Of a stretch of 64,000 nucleotides of DNA, positions 41,802-51,562 are shown piece by piece (the stretch's first letter is position 1; each line of letters starts with the position of its first letter). The notes under the pieces are model-generated. The model did not search any database and was not told the origin of the DNA. It was given only the letters and a program-made list of their open reading frames with translations. Position numbers and translations under genes: made by a program. The stretch comes from Candidatus Poribacteria bacterium (GTDB lineage Bacteria > Poribacteria > WGA-4E > WGA-3G): NCBI GenBank assembly GCA_028821605.1, contig JAPPFM010000018.1, positions 1-64,000 on the forward strand, written 5' to 3'.

Positions 41802-44459
41802 TCAAGTTTTCAATTGTTGTCGGACGATTTCACTGGCTGTTGCAATTGCTGGCTCCACTTTGCTCGGATCTTTACCGCCGCCTTGGGCGAGTTCAGGGCG
41901 ACCTCCACCACGACCATCTGCCAACTGGGTTAATTCGGAGACGATTTTACCCGCATTCAAACCGCGGTCCTTCACGAGGTCTGCGGTTACGCCGACCACA
42001 AAAGCCACCTCGTTCCCCGTTACAGCGGCAAGGGCGACGACACCAGATTCTAAACGGGTTTTGAGTTCATCAACAAGCCGCCGCAATCCGTTCCTATCCG
42101 TATCTGCTACGAGCGATGCCACGACCCGTACATCTTCAACAAGCGTCGCACCTTCAACGAGGGTGCTGACGTTGGCGAGCGCGTGCTGGCTTTTGAGTTG
42201 TTGGAGCTGCTGTTCCAATTCTCGTTGTTCCTGAAGCAATCGTTCGATCCGTTCGGACAAAGCTGCTTTGGGCGTTTTCAGCAGATTCGCCACGTTGGCG
42301 AGTAACGCAGTATCCTTTTGGACGGTTGTTACGGCTGTGGTACCGGTCAGTGCCTCGACTCGTCGGACACCTGCAGCGATACTGCTTTCGCTCATCAGTT
42401 TCACAAAGCCGAGTTCGCCAGTTGCCTGAACGTGGGTCCCTCCACAGAGTTCAACGCTATATTCACCAGCCTGCACGACACGCACAATATCCCCATATTT
42501 GTCTCCGAAGAAGGCTAAGGCACCTTTCTCTTTTGCCGCATCCAACGACATTTCACTGATAGACAGCGCGTCATTTTCACGAATTTTTTCGTTGACGAAT
42601 TCTTCAATGTCCTGCATCTGTTCCGGTGAAACAGCTTCATAGTGTGAGAAGTCAAACCGCAGTCTACCGGCTTCAACGAGTGAACCTGCTTGTCCAACGT
42701 GTGTTCCAAGAACGTGCCGCAATCCGCTGTGCAGAAGGTGTGTCGCTGTGTGGCTCACTGCAACGGCACTTCGGTGCGAAGTGTCAATTTTTGCTTGCAC
42801 TGTAGTATAGGGTGTGATTTCACCTTCAATCACCTGACACTTATGGGCAACCAGGTCCGCGGAAGGTTTGAGTGTGTCTTGGACAGCCAACTTCGCGTCT
42901 TGACTTTCAATTGTGCCGATATCACCGACCTGTCCACCCGATTCGCCGTAGAAAGGCGTTCGATTAAGGAGCACAAACACCTCGTCTCCCTGCTGTGCAC
43001 TGCCTATCGACTCAGCATCCGCAATTAAAGCGACGATTTCTGCTTCAATGTTGTTTTGTGTGTAGCCGACAAATTCCGTCTTACCGTGCTCTTTAAGGAC
43101 TTCGGCGTAAATAGAAATCTCTTCGTCTTTGGTGCCACCTCTCGCCTCCCATGCTGCTCGCCCACGCGAGCGTTGCGCCTCCATACTCTGTTCAAACCCA
43201 GCATCGTCAACGGTGAATCCACGTTCCCGGGCGAGCATCTCTGTCAGGTCAAGGGGGAAACCGAAGGTATCATATAACTCAAATGCCCGTTTTCCATCGA
43301 GTTGTGTGCTCTTTTTTTCTGTGAGTGTTTCAAATGATTGATCAAGCAGTTCGAGTCCGCGTTCGATTGTTTGATGAAAGCGGTGTTCTTCGCCCTGAAT
43401 CGTGCGGGTAATAAACTCGCGACGCGGTAAGACATCGGGAAATACATCGCCGAGCAGGTCGATAACGTTGTCAACGAGCCGATAGATGAAGGCTTCGTTC
43501 ATCTGTAATTTCTTACCGTAAAGCACGGCACGTCGTAAGATTCGGCGGATAACGTAGCCTCGCCCCTCATTGGACGGCATAACACCGTCGCCGATAGCGA
43601 AAGTTAAACATCGGATATGATCGGCGATAACTCGGTGTGGTAGACCGCGTTCATCATCAAAATAGGCGGTGTCTGTTATGTCGGCAATTGTCGTCAGAAG
43701 CGGTGTAAACAGGTCTGTTTTGTAGTTTGAATCGACACCTTGCAATATAGAGGTAATCCGCTCAAAGCCCATACCTGTATCTACGTGTGTCGCTGGCAGC
43801 GGTTCAAGCGCACCGCTTTCGTTCCGATTGTATTGAATAAACACCAGATTCCAGATTTCTCGGAACCGATCGCTGATGTTCGGACCGGTGTTCGGGTCGT
43901 TCGCGGTTTCAGGATAGGCTTCAACACCCATATCAACAAAAAGTTCGCTGCAGGGTCCGCAAGGGCCCGTCTCTCCCATTTCCCAAAAATTGTCCTTATC
44001 GCAGCGACTGATACGCGAGAGCGGGATATCTGTCTCTTGGAGCCAAAGTTTCTCTGCTTCGTCATCTTCAAGATAGACTGTTGCCCAGAGACGTTCCTTT
44101 GGAATCTGCCAAAGTTCGGTCACCAATTCCCAGGCAAAGGCGATGGCTTCCTGTTTGTAATAGTCGCCGAACGACCAGTTTCCGAGCATCTCGAAGAAGG
44201 TATGATGGCTTGGGGAATGACCGACCTCTTCAAGATCGTTGTGTTTACCGCTGACCCGCAGACATTTTTGTGTGTCAACGGCACGCGTATACTCCCGCTG
44301 TCCGATGCCGAGAAATACATCTTTGAATTGGTTCATCCCCGCGTTGGTGAATAACAGCGTCGGGTCATCTGCTGGTATCAAGGATGCACTCGGTACGACT
44401 GCGTGTCCGTTTTTACGGAAGTATTCTAAAAAACTGGCTCTGATTTCATCTGATGTCAT
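41802..44459 (-). CDS. alaS: Alanine-tRNA ligase
   Basis: AlaRS charges tRNA-Ala and edits mischarged Ser or Gly. The 885-residue protein has the catalytic core (RASFLEYFRKNGHAVVPSASLIPADDPTLLFTNAGMNQFKDVFLG is broken into motif pieces at residues 9-50), HTATHLLHSGLRHVLGTHVGQAGS (editing-domain HxxxH), CGGTHVQATGELG (C/H of the editing site) and the C-Ala domain. Length fits the family (about 870-880). It follows recX by 115 nt; a clear promoter lies in that gap. Confidence 0.97.
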   Translation of the reverse strand: MTSDEIRASFLEYFRKNGHAVVPSASLIPADDPTLLFTNAGMNQFKDVFLGIGQREYTRAVDTQKCLRVSGKHNDLEEVGHSPSHHTFFEMLGNWSFGDYYKQEAIAFAWELVTELWQIPKERLWATVYLEDDEAEKLWLQETDIPLSRISRCDKDNFWEMGETGPCGPCSELFVDMGVEAYPETANDPNTGPNISDRFREIWNLVFIQYNRNESGALEPLPATHVDTGMGFERITSILQGVDSNYKTDLFTPLLTTIADITDTAYFDDERGLPHRVIADHIRCLTFAIGDGVMPSNEGRGYVIRRILRRAVLYGKKLQMNEAFIYRLVDNVIDLLGDVFPDVLPRREFITRTIQGEEHRFHQTIERGLELLDQSFETLTEKKSTQLDGKRAFELYDTFGFPLDLTEMLARERGFTVDDAGFEQSMEAQRSRGRAAWEARGGTKDEEISIYAEVLKEHGKTEFVGYTQNNIEAEIVALIADAESIGSAQQGDEVFVLLNRTPFYGESGGQVGDIGTIESQDAKLAVQDTLKPSADLVAHKCQVIEGEITPYTTVQAKIDTSHRSAVAVSHTATHLLHSGLRHVLGTHVGQAGSLVEAGRLRFDFSHYEAVSPEQMQDIEEFVNEKIRENDALSISEMSLDAAKEKGALAFFGDKYGDIVRVVQAGEYSVELCGGTHVQATGELGFVKLMSESSIAAGVRRVEALTGTTAVTTVQKDTALLANVANLLKTPKAALSERIERLLQEQRELEQQLQQLKSQHALANVSTLVEGATLVEDVRVVASLVADTDRNGLRRLVDELKTRLESGVVALAAVTGNEVAFVVGVTADLVKDRGLNAGKIVSELTQLADGRGGGRPELAQGGGKDPSKVEPAIATASEIVRQQLKT

Positions 44460-44574: not shown

Positions 44575-45255
44575 TTAAAAAATTTGCTCAAGTACTTGTC
44601 GAACGGTTTCTGATTTGAACCCGCGTCGTGCCAAAAACCCGTGTAATCGACGTTTGGCAACATGAACCGGTAGCCGCTGATACTGCTTCATCCGTTTTTG
44701 GGCGATTTCAAGTGCGACTTTCGTTTCGTCTTCGGTTTCTACTTTCGCTACAACTTGCTCTGCTGTTTCTCGGTCGATGCCTTTGTCAATGAGTTCATGC
44801 TTAAGCAGCGTTTTTCCGCGCGGATTCGATTTTTGCCTGCGAGTTATCCAATTCTCTGCGTATTTCCTGTCGCGAATATGTCCTGAACGAATCAACTCTT
44901 CAATGGATGTCGCAATTGCTTTGGTTGAGAAGCCTTCTCGTTGAAGCCGTTGTTCCATCTCATTTTTGGTGTAAATTTTTGACTTTGCTGCGGGACGAGA
45001 ATGCTCTGATTCATCTGCTGTGGCATTGTCTTTTTCTTCACGAATTAACCTGAGCGCGTAGTTTTTCGCACGCATTACTTCATCCGCTGCAATTAACTTT
45101 TCGATAGTCTCGGCTTCAATTTCTAAGCCGATGCGTAAGCCAAATTTTTCAATTAAGGATGCGTGAACTACAACAAACGGAGAGCCGTTCAGAAAGAGTT
45201 GTTGATGTGATGGCAATTCGGGTGCTGCCTGAATATTGGTGATTTTCTGTTTCAT
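44575..45255 (-). CDS. recX: RecX regulatory protein
   Basis: RecX binds RecA filaments and inhibits their extension. The 226-residue protein has the RecX triple-helix repeat pattern: ALRLIREEKDN, TKNEMEQRLQREGFSTKAIATSIEELIRSGHIRDRKYAENWI, KSNPRGKTLLKHELIDKGIDRETAEQVV and VAKRRLHGFLARRGFKSETVRQVL. A longer N-terminal part (about 60 residues) precedes the repeats. recA itself is not in the window, although recX-alaS adjacency is common near recA. A heptad repeat element lies upstream (45273-45418). Confidence 0.87.
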   Translation of the reverse strand: MKQKITNIQAAPELPSHQQLFLNGSPFVVVHASLIEKFGLRIGLEIEAETIEKLIAADEVMRAKNYALRLIREEKDNATADESEHSRPAAKSKIYTKNEMEQRLQREGFSTKAIATSIEELIRSGHIRDRKYAENWITRRQKSNPRGKTLLKHELIDKGIDRETAEQVVAKVETEDETKVALEIAQKRMKQYQRLPVHVAKRRLHGFLARRGFKSETVRQVLEQIF

Positions 45256-45272: not shown

Positions 45273-45418
45273 GGAAACTATCAGCCGTCAGCGGTCAGAA
45301 ACCTGAACGACGCTGAATGCCTATACGGCTCAACGAATAGGGGCTGTGGCGGTTAACATTTCTGCTACTGCCACAGGTTCCCTCTTTGCCGAAAGCCGAC
45401 TGCTTACGGCTATTCGTC
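45273..45418. repeat. Heptad inverted-repeat element
   Basis: TATCAGCCGTCAGCGGTCAG near the left end and GAAAGCCGACTGCTTACGG near the right end are imperfect inverted copies of the 7-bp motif family. The element fills the gap between recX and the ThuA gene. Confidence 0.55.
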
Positions 45419-46050
45419 TATTCGCCGCCGTTGCTACCTGCCCAGAGGGCACCGCGTTCTAAGAGCGTTCCGAACATCTCATGCTGGCACGCCGAAGGAT
45501 CATGGCCGAGCGCGAGGTAGAAAACTTTACCTTCGCCCCAGTTCTTTGTCCATGCCACTGGTGCCGCAGCACCTTTCCATAATGCTGATGCAAGTATATG
45601 GTTTCGGGGATCATAATCAAGGATATACTGTTCATCTGTTACGACGAACTCGTCAAGTCCTTGTGTAATTTCGTGCTCACTGTCGACAATACTGACTTGA
45701 TAGTCGCGGTAGCGTGGGTGTGTAACGAAATAGCCACCTACCATTGAGCGATACTCGGGACACCCGCGAAACGAATCTGCTGCAGAGTGCACACCAACAT
45801 ATCCCTTCCCTGAAGCGACATGGTTGAGTAAGCCGTTCTTCTGTGCGTCCGAAATCTCACCGACCGTGTAATAGAAAACGATGAGATCATACGGATCTAA
45901 ATTTGGTGAGACAAGGGCATCCAAGTCTTCCTCGACTCTGGTAATCTCAAATTCATCTCGCTGTGAGAGCACATTCACGATTTCGTCACTGCAGCCTTTC
46001 CAATCGTGGATCGCTCCACCTGCGAAAACGAGTGTGTTAATTTTTGCCAT
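45418..46050 (-). CDS. ThuA domain-containing protein
   Basis: The 210-residue protein has the ThuA fold pattern: LVFAGGAIHDWKGCSDEIVNVL, DLIVFYYTVGEIS, GKGYVGVHSAADSFRGCPEYRSMVGGYFVTHP, and VFYLALGHDPSACQHEMFGTLLERGALWA. ThuA-family proteins relate to trehalose and sugar utilisation; the exact reaction is not established. GGAGGC lies near the ATG. A TATAAT on the minus strand lies about 35 nt upstream, without a clear -35. Confidence 0.88.
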   Translation of the reverse strand: MAKINTLVFAGGAIHDWKGCSDEIVNVLSQRDEFEITRVEEDLDALVSPNLDPYDLIVFYYTVGEISDAQKNGLLNHVASGKGYVGVHSAADSFRGCPEYRSMVGGYFVTHPRYRDYQVSIVDSEHEITQGLDEFVVTDEQYILDYDPRNHILASALWKGAAAPVAWTKNWGEGKVFYLALGHDPSACQHEMFGTLLERGALWAGSNGGE

Positions 46051-46296
46051 TCGTTAGCCTCCTTCTTATATAGTATCGCTATTATACCACGCGCGCAGAA
46101 ATACGGGTAACTTTTTTCTCGTAAGCTGGAACTGGGCATCCGTAAATATTTTGTCAAAAATTTAGATTGGATGGGTGGAAGGATGGAAGTCTGATGGATG
46201 GATTTGCATAGCAAGGTGTCTTGTGATATAATGATAGCAGATATCAGAACATCTGCTGCGGTAGGTGGATGTGGTCACATTTGTGAAGGGTTTTTT

Positions 46297-48501
46297 ATGA
46301 AGTTTCGGTTCCGGATATTGTCTACTAACAAACGGCGACAACGAGATGTGAGAAATTTCGGTCTGTTGCTACTGCTCATCGGTTTTTGTTTGCATGATCC
46401 AGGTCATAGTTCCCTCAAATATCTTGGCGTTCTTATGTTGCTGTGGAGCGGGATGTCATGGTTGGTACAGAAAGCGTGGTCTGCGGGTTGGTTCCAAGAT
46501 GCTGCTTGGGTTCATCTGATCGCCCTCGTTGTTTTGATTTTCGTAGATGTCCAAGTTGGGCGCATCCTGCGCGTCGCCGAGACTGCTGTTGTCAATTTTT
46601 CAGAGCAGATGCTACAGAAAGGATTGTCTGAGCCACCTGAAAAGCGCGAACCGATTGCAAAGTTTGAGCATGGAGATGCCATTCGTTCGATAGCGTTTTC
46701 ACCTATTGATGCTTCCGTTTTGGTAAGTGCTGGTGGTGATACGATAAAACTCTGGAATCGAGACACGCCCGACACGCCAGAGGTCCTTCGCTTTGAACGT
46801 TACACAGATGGCGTTAGTTCCGTTGCTTTTTCGTCAGATGGTGAACGCCTTGCTGCAGTGGGTGATGAAGGTATAACGTTGTGGAGTGTTCCTGAGAAAC
46901 GCTTTATTGATGTTTTTGGTGATGATACGGCTACCGTTGCCTTTTCACCGGATGGACGGCGAATAGCGGGAGCCGCTTGGGACCTAAATCTGTGGGACAT
47001 CACAGACAGCAGCTTCAGGAAGGTAGGACTCTTCAAGCACCGCACGCATGACGCGTTTGTGCAAGGGATCGCCTTTTCATTGGATGGGAAATGGCTTGTC
47101 TCTGGGGACTCTCAAGGCGAATTAAAGGTCTGGGACGTTCAAAATGAGCGGGCGGCTATTCCACACCTGAAAGGCGGAAAATCATCAATTCGTTCCGTTA
47201 AGTTTTCTCCTGACGAAACTAACCGTATCCTTGCCAGCGCAGGACCTGATGGCGATGTTCTATTGTGGCGCACAGCGGATTGGCAAATCAGTCACAGGAT
47301 TTCAACAGGAACCGTATTGGATCTCGCCTTCTCACCTGATGGAAACACACTCGCCAGCGTAGGCTGGGATACAGTAGACTTCTGGGCGGTAGAAAATGGC
47401 GCGCCTATCATCTCATTGAAAGAAAGAGCAAGATCCATTGCTTTCTCACCGAACGGGAATACGTTTGCCACCGGTGGGACAGATGGTTTTCTACGTATCT
47501 GGGACGTTTCTCAATCCGTGATCCCACAGCAATTAGCGATGCAAGATGCCGTCCGAATTATTTACTTTCTTCCTAAGGGGTCTCGCCCACAGCTGAATAT
47601 ACAGGCAAAAATTGATAAAATAATCAGGAAGGTGCAGCACTTTTACGCAGAGCAGATAGAAGACCACCGATTGGATAGAAGATCCTTTACTTTTGAAACC
47701 GATGAAAGCGGTGAAGCGCGAGTGTATCTGGTAAAGGGTAAATTTACCGCTGCGTACTATTTGGAGAAGACACTCGCAAGAGTTGAGGACGAAATAGAGA
47801 CGCATTTTGATCTTTCGAGAAACGTCCACTTTGTTGTTGTAGAACTCGGCAGCAAAAGAATTGAAGAGAATGTCTGCGGTCAAGGTCGAGTCAATTTGAT
47901 TTGGGGTGGTGGAGAATTATGGCAGGCAAAGTCGGGATTGGCGTGTATCCCCACCTTTAAAAATTGCTTTGATTGGCAGACCGCTGCACACGAACTTGGA
48001 CACGCTTTTGGCTTAGATCACGATTTTCGGAATGATAATTATCTTATGTCTTATGGTAGAGGGTCAAAACGGCTGTCTCAATGTGCTGCACACTGGCTGT
48101 CTCAAACGCGTTTTTTTAAATCCAACCAACGGTTCTTTGATAAGCCCGCCACAATTGAGATGGAACACGCTCCGCCGGATGCTCAATTTGAAATTACCGA
48201 TGCCGACGGCATCCATCAAATCCAACTGCTTGTTGCCCCAACAAGTGAAGTGCCTCCTGCGGGTTACGAAGTGAGTGCGGATGAGGAGAAGAACAAGGAC
48301 AACTGGAAGAAGTATAAAGAAGACAAGGGACTCATGTTACACAGCCACTATAGGTTGGATGGAGAAGAGCAGAAAGTTGTTGGGTTACCAGATGTCCAAA
48401 CCGAGAAAGTCGAAATTCAGATGATTGATGTGCATGGCAATATCACTTGGCGGAGATTCGACCTCGACGAAAATTCAGAGCAGCCACCCGAAAACCCTTA
48501 G
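46297..48501 (+). CDS. Membrane-anchored WD40 propeller fused to a metzincin-like zinc protease
   Basis: The 734-residue protein has two N-terminal TMs (FGLLLLLIGFCLH and WVHLIALVVLIFVDV within residues 15-90). A WD40 propeller of about seven blades follows (IRSIAFSPIDASVLVSAGGDTIKLW, VKFSPDETNRILASAGPDGDVLLW, IAFSPNGNTFATGGTDGFLRIWDVS). Then comes a zincin domain with TAAHELGHAFGLDHD near residues 565-576, and a Met-turn (NYLMSYG) about 10 residues after it. The HExxHxxGxxHD pattern is that of metzincins. GAAGGG lies before the ATG at 46297; the longer frame from 46198 is rejected. It may cleave proteins recruited by the propeller; that is inference. Confidence 0.8.
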   Translation: MKFRFRILSTNKRRQRDVRNFGLLLLLIGFCLHDPGHSSLKYLGVLMLLWSGMSWLVQKAWSAGWFQDAAWVHLIALVVLIFVDVQVGRILRVAETAVVNFSEQMLQKGLSEPPEKREPIAKFEHGDAIRSIAFSPIDASVLVSAGGDTIKLWNRDTPDTPEVLRFERYTDGVSSVAFSSDGERLAAVGDEGITLWSVPEKRFIDVFGDDTATVAFSPDGRRIAGAAWDLNLWDITDSSFRKVGLFKHRTHDAFVQGIAFSLDGKWLVSGDSQGELKVWDVQNERAAIPHLKGGKSSIRSVKFSPDETNRILASAGPDGDVLLWRTADWQISHRISTGTVLDLAFSPDGNTLASVGWDTVDFWAVENGAPIISLKERARSIAFSPNGNTFATGGTDGFLRIWDVSQSVIPQQLAMQDAVRIIYFLPKGSRPQLNIQAKIDKIIRKVQHFYAEQIEDHRLDRRSFTFETDESGEARVYLVKGKFTAAYYLEKTLARVEDEIETHFDLSRNVHFVVVELGSKRIEENVCGQGRVNLIWGGGELWQAKSGLACIPTFKNCFDWQTAAHELGHAFGLDHDFRNDNYLMSYGRGSKRLSQCAAHWLSQTRFFKSNQRFFDKPATIEMEHAPPDAQFEITDADGIHQIQLLVAPTSEVPPAGYEVSADEEKNKDNWKKYKEDKGLMLHSHYRLDGEEQKVVGLPDVQTEKVEIQMIDVHGNITWRRFDLDENSEQPPENP

Positions 48502-48522: not shown

Positions 48523-49035
48523 ATGTCAAAAAAAATCGCTATTTTTCCCGCGAGTTTTGACCCAGTCACCAATGGGCATGTTGACCTCATTAATCGGATT
48601 TGCAACCTTGATATTTTCGATGAACTCGTTGTTGCCATCGGTGTTAATCCTGCCAAACCGGCGCGTTTCACACTTGAGGAACGCATTGAGATGCTTGAAA
48701 TTGTCATTGGTCCGTATCCGCAAGCCACGATTGATCGTTATACCGGATTGACAGTGGATTACGCGCAGAAACGCGGCGCGTGCGCAATCGTCCGTGGGCT
48801 ACGCGAAGTCTCCGATTTTGAATGGGAATTCAAGATGGCACGAATGAATCAGCAGATCGCGCCGGATATTGATACGTTCTTTATGATGGCAAATACAAAG
48901 TACGCGCATATCAGTTCAACCCTCGTGATGGAGGTCGTGGAGATGGCGCAGCGAAAGTTAAGCGAAGAGAAATTGAAAGAGATGGTGCCGGAAATCGTCG
49001 TCGAATTTATTAAAAAGAAATTTGAGGTGTTGTAA
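48523..49035 (+). CDS. coaD: Phosphopantetheine adenylyltransferase
   Basis: CoaD makes dephospho-CoA from 4'-phosphopantetheine and ATP, the fourth step of CoA synthesis. The 170-residue protein has the adenylyltransferase start AIFPASFDPVTNGHVDLINR (TxGH), GVNPAKPARFTLEER, GLREVSDFEWEFKMARMN and the ISST loop (YAHISSTLVMEVVEM). It follows the WD40-zincin gene by 21 nt, so it may share its transcript. A heptad repeat element lies downstream. Confidence 0.96.
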   Translation: MSKKIAIFPASFDPVTNGHVDLINRICNLDIFDELVVAIGVNPAKPARFTLEERIEMLEIVIGPYPQATIDRYTGLTVDYAQKRGACAIVRGLREVSDFEWEFKMARMNQQIAPDIDTFFMMANTKYAHISSTLVMEVVEMAQRKLSEEKLKEMVPEIVVEFIKKKFEVL

Positions 49036-49198
49036 ATGGTTGTCAGTCATCATGCTTCGCAGTGAGAATAGTTTTCAGTTAAGAGGTTACCTTAAAAATA
49101 GGGACAATTATCTTGAACTTGGTGTACTCCAAGAGCACTTAAATTGTTACCAAAAATCTCTTAACCGATAACTGATGACCGATAACTGACAACTATTA
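49032..49198. repeat. Long heptad inverted-repeat hairpin element
   Basis: Left arm GGTTGTCAGTCATC and right arm GATGACCGATAACTGACAAC (ending near 49195) pair imperfectly, and inner arms TTAAGAGG and CCTCTTAA-like (TCTCTTAACC) also pair. The element fills the gap between coaD and the convergent TonB receptor gene and could form a long cruciform or terminator-like stem. Confidence 0.65.
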
Positions 49199-51562
49199 AA
49201 ACCGATTGTCCAGGGTTAGGCTCACATTGAAACCTGGGGCGTTTACACCAGTACCGTGTGGTCGATACCGCTGGTCGAGCAGGTTTTCAAGTGATAATGT
49301 CATACGTGTATAGTCGAAGAGTTTGACCCCGCCGCGGACGTTGAGTGTCCACCATCCGGGTGTTCCAGCATCTACTGCATAGCCGTTGGAATCAAATTCA
49401 ACTTCCGCCGGATCGCGCGTTTTTCCCTGCATCCGCGGGTCGCGGATATCGCTCCGGTTCAACCGCCTCTGTTCCGCTGCACCGCGCACATAGAGTGTCA
49501 CCCAAAACTGTGTATCCAAGGGTTCCCATTGAACTCCAACGATTCCGTTCAACGGAGGTTCTCTACGAACGCGTGCTTCCCAAGGTTTCTCAGGATCCGG
49601 TGCTTTGCCATTAATCTTGAGGACTTCCCCACGTATCAATGCAGCATTCCCAAAGACTGACCAAGCCGGAAGAACTGGGATGAGTCCGGCTACTTCAACC
49701 CCTTGATATTGTGCTTCATCAACGTTATCAAACACGAGTACATCAATACTCTCGTATTCTTTAATCAGGTCTTGGTGGAGTTGCGGTAGTGTTTCACCGG
49801 CGTAAGCCTCTTGGACGGGTCTACGTGCAACTAAACCGCTGACTCGGCTGTGGAATAGTATTAAGTCACCACGGAAATAGGAGTGTTTCGCCTTGAGTCC
49901 GCCCTCAACCGTCCACGAAGTCTCCGGTCTAAGATCGGGACTCGGTGCTGTGACACCTTCATTGGTGACCTCCACTGCGGTTGTGTCATTTAAAGACGGG
50001 GCACGAAACGCTGTTCCAAAACTGCTTACAAAGTTCAGGGAGTCTGTCAAACCGACTACCACTCCGGCACTTCCTGTCAAACTGCTGTCGAATTTGTTGA
50101 ATTCGTCGAAACTCTTATCTCGGATGGAGAGGTCCGCATTGGTTTGATAAAAAGTTGCACGACCACCGAGTGTCAATTCAACACGCTCGTGTAGTGTAAT
50201 TTCATCTTGTAAATATAGACTCGCGTCCCAGAACTGAGAGCCATTAATGAAACGCCCAAGGTTCTCGTCAACCGTTTCTTTTCCTTTATCATCTGTTTTG
50301 ACGGTACGACTCTGTATCATATCCAAGTAGAATTCAGCACCGCCGAGCAAACGTTGCCGAGGAAGGATTGAGCTGACCGCTTGTGCGCTCAAGCCTATGG
50401 TGTTAACAGTATCGTATCGCTGCCGTCGAGACGTTGCGCCGCGTACTACCTCGTTTCGTCCCTCTTTTTGGCGGTGATAGGAGGCTGTCAGACGAAACGT
50501 GTCAACGCTTCCTTCTACTGGGGTTACTAAGTAATTAGCATAAATGAGATCACGGTTTTGCGGTTCAAAAAAGAATTCATCGAACTCCTGCGGTGCGATC
50601 TTATCATACCGCGGCGTTTGGGGCTGTCGCCACATCTGATAAGCAACATTAAGAGTGCTGTTGTTGTTGAATTGATATGCAATTTTCGCGTCGGCATCAT
50701 AAGCACTCCAACCCAGCGGTCCTTCATTGTCAATGAGCCATCTCCCAGGGATGTTATCTTTTGACAATTTACGAATCTCATCATAGTCATAGAACTTCAC
50801 ACCTTTTGGTATTTCATCTACTATTTCAAACTTCCGATTTTTGTAGTGGAGATCATACCCGCTGCCAGGGTTCATATCCCCATAGAATCGCACGCCACCA
50901 CCAGCGACGAATCCGAACCGTCCTTTGTTGCCTGTTACCTCTAACTTGGCGAGTCGTTCCTGTGTGGCAGTCGTATAGCGAGCAAGGAGTCGTGGGTGTA
51001 TATCCCAGGTCTGCTGCGCTGGGTTGAGCGGTACGGCTTTCGTGAAGAAACTGATAACGCCCCCCATCGCGCCGCTGCCATATAGCATAGAACTTGAACC
51101 GAGTAAAACCTCGGCGCGCTCCAACATGTCTGGTGCGATGGTTGCTGTGTACTGATTTGGCCCCGAGCGAAATGTCGAATTGTTGAGACGAACCCAGTCG
51201 ACCTGTATCAACGTTTGGTAGCCAGTTAGACCCCGGAGTAACGGGGAGCCTTGTCCAACTGTCGTCTGCTGTGCGCTAACGCCGACCGAATCACGAAGCA
51301 AATTGGACGCGATATCTGCGTTGTTCCGTTCCAACTGTTTTAGATTGAGAACTGTAATAGCGTTAGGTGTCTTGAACGGATCTTTCACAGCACGTGTGGC
51401 AGTCACAGTCACCTCTGGCACCTCCACAACTTTCTCCTCCACAACTTTTTTATTGGCTTTTTCGTCAGAATCTTTTTTCGCGTTCGTACTTGGAATCCAG
51501 CTCACTAACAAACCGAAACTTATAAGGAATATAAGAAAAAAAAGATAAAGCGATTTTTTCAT
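49196..51562 (-). CDS. TonB-dependent outer-membrane receptor
   Basis: The 788-residue protein has a signal peptide (MKKSLYLFFLIFLISFGLLVSWIPSTNA). A TonB-box-like region and plug follow (VPEVTVTATRAVKDPF, LLRDSVGVSAQQTTVGQGSPLLRG, LLGSSSMLYGSGAMGGVISFFTK). A 22-strand beta-barrel pattern runs to a terminal aromatic (FNVSLTLDNRF). It imports iron chelates, cobalamin, sugars or other large nutrients across the outer membrane using TonB energy. A sigma54-like element lies upstream. The next gene is divergent. Confidence 0.94.
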   Translation of the reverse strand: MKKSLYLFFLIFLISFGLLVSWIPSTNAKKDSDEKANKKVVEEKVVEVPEVTVTATRAVKDPFKTPNAITVLNLKQLERNNADIASNLLRDSVGVSAQQTTVGQGSPLLRGLTGYQTLIQVDWVRLNNSTFRSGPNQYTATIAPDMLERAEVLLGSSSMLYGSGAMGGVISFFTKAVPLNPAQQTWDIHPRLLARYTTATQERLAKLEVTGNKGRFGFVAGGGVRFYGDMNPGSGYDLHYKNRKFEIVDEIPKGVKFYDYDEIRKLSKDNIPGRWLIDNEGPLGWSAYDADAKIAYQFNNNSTLNVAYQMWRQPQTPRYDKIAPQEFDEFFFEPQNRDLIYANYLVTPVEGSVDTFRLTASYHRQKEGRNEVVRGATSRRQRYDTVNTIGLSAQAVSSILPRQRLLGGAEFYLDMIQSRTVKTDDKGKETVDENLGRFINGSQFWDASLYLQDEITLHERVELTLGGRATFYQTNADLSIRDKSFDEFNKFDSSLTGSAGVVVGLTDSLNFVSSFGTAFRAPSLNDTTAVEVTNEGVTAPSPDLRPETSWTVEGGLKAKHSYFRGDLILFHSRVSGLVARRPVQEAYAGETLPQLHQDLIKEYESIDVLVFDNVDEAQYQGVEVAGLIPVLPAWSVFGNAALIRGEVLKINGKAPDPEKPWEARVRREPPLNGIVGVQWEPLDTQFWVTLYVRGAAEQRRLNRSDIRDPRMQGKTRDPAEVEFDSNGYAVDAGTPGWWTLNVRGGVKLFDYTRMTLSLENLLDQRYRPHGTGVNAPGFNVSLTLDNRF

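Follow-up and report, generated by a model that had tools for sequence, protein, structure and literature searches.

A WD40 propeller joined to an OgpA-like metzincin behind a three-helix membrane anchor in Candidatus Poribacteria

The closest described systems are two metzincins of one group, OgpA (Amuc_1119 of Akkermansia muciniphila, PDB 6z2d/6z2o/6z2p/6z2q) and the Tn-antigen O-glycopeptidase Amuc_1438 (PDB 8dek/8df2). Both cut mucin-type proteins on the N-terminal side of O-glycosylated Ser/Thr and have been put forward as founders of a new family of peptidases (PMC7518263, PMC9513282). OgpA has an aromatic O-glycan pocket made of Y116, F166, W199 and Y236, with N235 (PMC7518263). The solved OgpA has neither a WD40 propeller nor a membrane anchor, and Amuc_1438 has an NPCBM/CBM51-like module in place of the propeller, with no anchor described in the accessible part of its report (PMC9513282). 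Poribacteria, in turn, are known for abundant WD40 proteins, many of them with TIGR04183 tails; the 2014 paper describing them, in which the words protease and peptidase are absent, reported Por-type tails without any structural genes (PMC3909097).

Here, we analysed a window of 64,000 nucleotides from Candidatus Poribacteria (assembly GCA_028821605.1, contig JAPPFM010000018.1, positions 1 to 64,000), which encodes a protein that joins these two themes. The initial annotation, made from the sequence alone, had noticed TM segments, about seven WD40 blades and a metzincin with a Met-turn in one chain. This was borne out by an intact gene for a 734-aa protein with three TM segments and seven blades, while the Ig-like beta-sandwich at the C-terminus and the relationship to OgpA had been missed. 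The features of the protein, all on the plus strand, are as follows.

46297..48501 (+), coding sequence of 734 aa with three TM segments, WD40 propeller, OgpA-like metzincin and Ig-like domain (dN/dS 0.14)
46297..46329 (+), positively charged and presumably cytoplasmic N-terminus, with eight K/R in the first 19 residues (sequence)
46330..46392 (+), TM1, residues 12-32 (AlphaFold model)
46417..46482 (+), TM2, residues 41-62 (AlphaFold model)
46501..46623 (+), TM3, extending into a long helical stalk, residues 69-109 (AlphaFold model)
46657..47505 (+), seven-bladed WD40 propeller, residues 121-403 (Pfam, model, Foldseek)
47551..48105 (+), OgpA/Amuc_1438-like metzincin catalytic domain, residues 419-603 (profile against PDB, Foldseek)
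47875..47877 (+), Cys527, one half of a co-varying cysteine pair (co-variation in 84 sequences)
47965..47967 (+), Cys557, the other half (co-variation in 84 sequences)
47989..48024 (+), zinc site HELGHAFGLDHD, residues 565-576, containing HELGHAFGLDH (sequence, relatives)
48046..48048 (+), Met-turn methionine Met584, in YLMSYG (sequence, relatives)
48151..48462 (+), Ig-like beta-sandwich, residues 619-722, aligning with the C-terminal sandwich of OgpA (model, profile)

The protein lies within a single open frame (46198-48501, +) that contains no internal stop. The ATG at 46297 is the likely start, since in the closest relatives only a few codons separate the matching MKFRF from a stop that precedes it; for the same reason, a start at 46198 was rejected. 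A three-TM form with the same domain order occurs in nine genomes of the genus (46-95% identity), some of whose assemblies consist of one to three contigs. Because all nine keep both the domain order and the zinc motif, the WD40-metzincin chain is far beyond chance occurrence.

Structure prediction, which had been suggested as a check, resolved the three TM segments, the propeller, the metzincin and the beta-sandwich within the residue limits listed above (full 734-aa chain modelled with AlphaFold from 44 aligned sequences, mean pLDDT 82.5). Pfam WD40 matched the window protein at 1.8e-37 (126.6 bits against a cut-off of 27) in six stretches. The modelled propeller has about 28 strands, and its best Foldseek matches are seven-bladed (5yzv/7big, TM-score 0.87-0.89). 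As the top hits of the full chain were propellers only, a model and a fold search of their own were made for the peptidase domain.

The separate model of the peptidase and Ig-like part reached a pLDDT of 92.0. Its nine top Foldseek hits were all OgpA or Amuc_1438 (1.1e-16 to 9.5e-14), and the next metzincins followed only at about 1e-4. Consistent with this, a profile built from nine copies of the window's own genome found Amuc_1438 at 1.4e-13 and OgpA at 1.7e-13 in the PDB, and a profile from 84 copies found them at 1.1e-17 and 1.5e-17 (range 1.1e-17 to 1.6e-17, hmmsearch), with the OgpA alignment continuing through the C-terminal sandwich. OgpA is thus the best profile and fold match and shares with the window protein the catalytic fold, HExxHxxxxxH, the Met-turn Met and the beta-sandwich that follows, at about 15% identity; Amuc_1438 has an equal profile score and a PF12044 fragment match. 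Matrixins, ADAM/reprolysins and astacins (MEROPS M10, M12) also have the metzincin zinc site, but their fold match is 12 orders of magnitude weaker than that of OgpA. Membership in these families was rejected, given the Foldseek values of about 1e-4 and the partial single-sequence Pfam matches, which were fragments around the zinc site (Reprolysin_5 at 5e-7 over 29 residues, just above the cut-off).

The zinc site is present in 84/84 and the Met-turn Met in 73/84 aligned copies from loci mostly sampled by motif. The first locus set had been found with HEL[GLA]H[AC]FGL and is biased to intact sites, so that its motif conservation was left unused; among loci sampled without the motif, 26 of 28 have an intact site. 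For the glycan pocket, the profile alignment shows no clear equivalents of F166, W199, N235 and Y236; most of the 84 copies have a polar residue where W199 aligns, and the loops are too divergent for a firm assignment. Dependence on O-glycans may therefore be absent. Judged from alignment and model, the window peptidase is a distant member of the OgpA/Amuc_1438 group, and since counterparts of the pocket are unclear, this assignment covers the fold and the catalytic core and does not extend to O-glycan specificity.

Several observations bear on the orientation of the chain. Periplasmic exposure of propeller, peptidase and Ig-like domain is suggested by the very positive N-terminus, by the odd number of TM segments (three here, one in sister lineages; relatives were counted by hydropathy and inspection rather than with a trained topology predictor), by the signal peptides of the secreted clade and by the co-varying cysteines. 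Among 84 sequences, 55 have both Cys527 and Cys557, 28 neither and only 1 a single one, and nearly all of six independent contrasts agreed in direction, which makes a disulfide probable. Since several anchored relatives lack the pair, it speaks for an external position of the family as a whole more than of any single member.

Residues 1-116 resemble small stand-alone membrane proteins of the genus (about 90-130 aa), and the three-TM anchor was therefore probably acquired by fusion. Such stand-alone proteins were seen in L184 (1948-2208 and 2389-2760), L186 (2813-3112) and L187 (2647-3027). Loci L184-L186 also hold a gene judged by eye to be sigma-factor-like and encode a small Cys-containing protein that looks secreted, and L187, from the window's genome, has a repeat-rich stretch at 117-2542 whose translations resemble a CRISPR-type array.

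To place the protein among its relatives, we searched for the same domain order, as the initial annotation had advised. Of 85 poribacterial genomes, 64 had a WD40-metzincin match at 1e-60. The supposition that no named family has the order TM-WD40-metzincin holds for Pfam, NCBIfam and the open-access literature searched, yet the WD40-metzincin order is common in Poribacteria and therefore represents a family rather than a one-off. Named records of relatives are almost all from Candidatus Poribacteria, the nearest being 88% identical over the peptidase part. The window's genome alone encodes nine full-length metzincin proteins of the OgpA-like kind, combined with WD40, leucine-rich, YWTD, dockerin and FlgD/Por-like modules (some recognised by eye). 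The reverse order, metzincin then WD40, was found in Latescibacterota and one Gemmatimonadaceae bin, so the pairing recurs. No description of WD40-metzincin fusions or poribacterial metalloproteases was found in the open-access literature, and the anchored architecture, its genomic island and its pseudo-enzymes look undescribed.

Most WD40-metzincins are secreted, with a signal peptide and a C-terminal tail of the type IX-like sorting kind. All four secreted paralogues tested matched TIGR04183 (24.9-38.1 bits against a cut-off of 23), the highest score belonging to the paralogue on C8. Those on C8 and C27 are WD40 proteins with Por/T9SS-type tails as described before (PMC3909097); unlike these, the window protein is membrane-anchored, and a profile search found no TIGR04183-type tail in it. 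Two own-genome paralogues (L013 6017-7000 on C27 and L016 5904-6890 on C41) keep HExxHxxGxxH and have no Met at the usual place of the Met-turn. Separately, a 2252-aa ORF of G000 (C2:104280-108197, -) resembles SprA in four pieces that are collinear with it (best 1.1e-18), and three ORFs are PorU-like (7e-87 to 1e-72), all below NCBIfam cut-offs; by these similarities, they may represent a divergent type IX secretion system. The PorU-like ORFs of G000 are located as follows.

C2:72676-74586 (-), PorU-like ORF
C59:423490-425334 (-), PorU-like ORF
C41:248022-249776 (+), PorU-like ORF

In a tree of 69 WD40-peptidases, secreted and anchored proteins are split (SH-aLRT 99), and the three-TM proteins, all active enzymes, form one branch with support 100. 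The anchored clade shares an ancestor with the secreted WD40-metzincins that carry the type IX-like tail. Most of the related genomes are metagenome assemblies. Among close relatives, the window protein is under purifying selection (dN/dS 0.14-0.15 overall), with the anchor as its most constrained part (0.07-0.08), followed by the peptidase (0.09-0.12) and the propeller (0.15-0.23).

The gene occupies an island between conserved flanks, listed here for the window.

41802..44459 (-), alaS, conserved left flank (sequence, synteny)
44575..45255 (-), recX, conserved left flank (Pfam RecX, synteny)
45418..46050 (-), thuA-like gene, divergent, left border of the island (Pfam ThuA, synteny)
48523..49035 (+), coaD (phosphopantetheine adenylyltransferase), 21 bp downstream of the gene (Pfam CTP_transf_like)
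49196..51562 (-), TonB-dependent receptor, convergent, conserved right flank (Pfam, synteny)

The same order is found throughout the genus and, on the coaD side, is kept in the sister genus as well; the last island gene ends 21-26 nt ahead of coaD in most genomes (median 22, 25 loci). Islands of relatives hold one to five anchored WD40 genes, some active, many full-length with the zinc ligands lost, others propeller-only. The window genome's island has a single active copy and neither a pseudo-peptidase nor a propeller-only partner. Zinc sites were lost at least twice on the tree, in one-TM sister lineages. Loss of the metal motif in relatives, which the initial annotation had regarded as decisive, is therefore real for these sisters, but the three-TM clade shows none of it (9/9 keep the site). 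One pseudo-peptidase lineage has a dN/dS of 0.11-0.14 also in the dead domain, and in the other the dead domain is relaxed (0.35-0.54) and the propeller is under tighter constraint (0.22-0.25). Every propeller-only gene that stands directly ahead of a pseudo-peptidase gene or another propeller-only gene overlaps it by exactly 11 nt (L141-L148, L152-L154, L156 and L157, in two genera), often behind a Shine-Dalgarno-like stretch. Such an exact overlap is a strong sign of translational coupling, and the products are therefore probably physically partnered.

Taken as a whole, we favour the view that the window protein is an inner-membrane-tethered periplasmic (glyco)peptidase with a docking propeller, to which we give an even chance. 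Its N-terminus would lie in the cytoplasm and its three helices would cross the inner membrane, with propeller, peptidase and Ig-like domain outside. Given the intact site and the fold, the catalytic domain would cut peptide bonds via a zinc-activated water with Glu566 as the base, and the propeller may act as a docking surface that brings either a substrate, protein or glycoprotein, or else a partner subunit to the active site. Held at the inner membrane, the anchored form could act, for instance, on (glyco)peptides that arrive in the periplasm or on envelope proteins of the cell itself. In the sister lineages, pseudo-peptidases and propeller-only proteins from the same island point to propeller assemblies of several subunits, only some of which would cut. 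The earlier suggestion of a cell-envelope protease is thus supported by the topology, the signal peptides of the secreted sisters, the zinc site and the selection; its idea that the propeller selects substrates is no more than plausible and fits the propeller-only and pseudo-peptidase siblings, which keep the propeller intact. Against a tethered peptidase, catalysis disappeared at least twice in the sisters, which means that cutting is not essential in every case, and the conserved place next to coaD offers no evident connection with proteolysis.

It is conceivable, if unlikely, that the protein is primarily a sensor or scaffold, whose propeller assembles an envelope complex while proteolysis is secondary or regulatory and dispensable in many relatives. 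The retention of full-length pseudo-peptidases in the sisters, one lineage with its dead domain at 0.11-0.14, the apparent coupling of propeller-only proteins to them and the strong constraint on the anchor all fit such a role, but the zinc site is complete in nine of nine three-TM proteins and the window clade's island consists of one active copy without either kind of partner.

Nutritional use seems less probable still. Here, the enzyme would trim mucin-like glycopeptides of a sponge host for import via TonB-type receptors, as might be expected from solved relatives that are mucin O-glycopeptidases (PMC7518263, PMC9513282), from secreted paralogues with sorting tails in the same genome and from the TonB-dependent receptor in the conserved flank. 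That receptor gene is convergent, though, with coaD in between, and hence forms no operon with the window gene, beside which no glycosidase genes were identified; nor are the glycan-pocket residues evidently conserved.

An effector of a defence or conflict system, joining a WD40 propeller to a protease, is very improbable: accounts of conflict systems in multicellular bacteria mention propellers and metzincins (PMC7159879, PMC8195603), but the gene lies in stable housekeeping synteny (thuA, recX, alaS, coaD and the TonB receptor) with no NTPase or defence neighbours, the PADLOC match is confined to the WD40 region and the predicted topology is periplasmic. A frameshift or assembly artefact fusing a propeller gene to a peptidase gene, which the initial annotation had singled out as fatal, is rejected, with the same order in nine genomes of varied identity, the uninterrupted frame and purifying selection throughout.

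More speculatively, and at odds we consider low, the island may encode a new envelope complex whose anchored propellers come as active glycopeptidase, conserved pseudo-peptidase and propeller-only forms, co-translated into hetero-oligomers; their dead subunits would present substrates to the active one or gate them. It would be equally tentative to regard the window genome as keeping the minimal, single active form of such a complex, fused to a three-TM module that also exists alone.

In a tethered and propeller-joined form, the protein extends to Poribacteria a recently recognised peptidase group that has so far been characterised in a gut mucin degrader. It is a concrete candidate for glycoprotein processing by sponge-associated bacteria. 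Within a single locus, the island presents active, dead and propeller-only versions as a natural series, which makes it testable what a pseudo-protease or docking propeller does after catalysis is lost.

Finally, a second group of three-TM WD40-metzincins was observed at L159-L162, where the genes are non-syntenic with the island and lie near a PQQ-like propeller gene; small lipoprotein-like genes (GCSDxPYTG) stand near the three-TM WD40-metzincins in three of these four loci.
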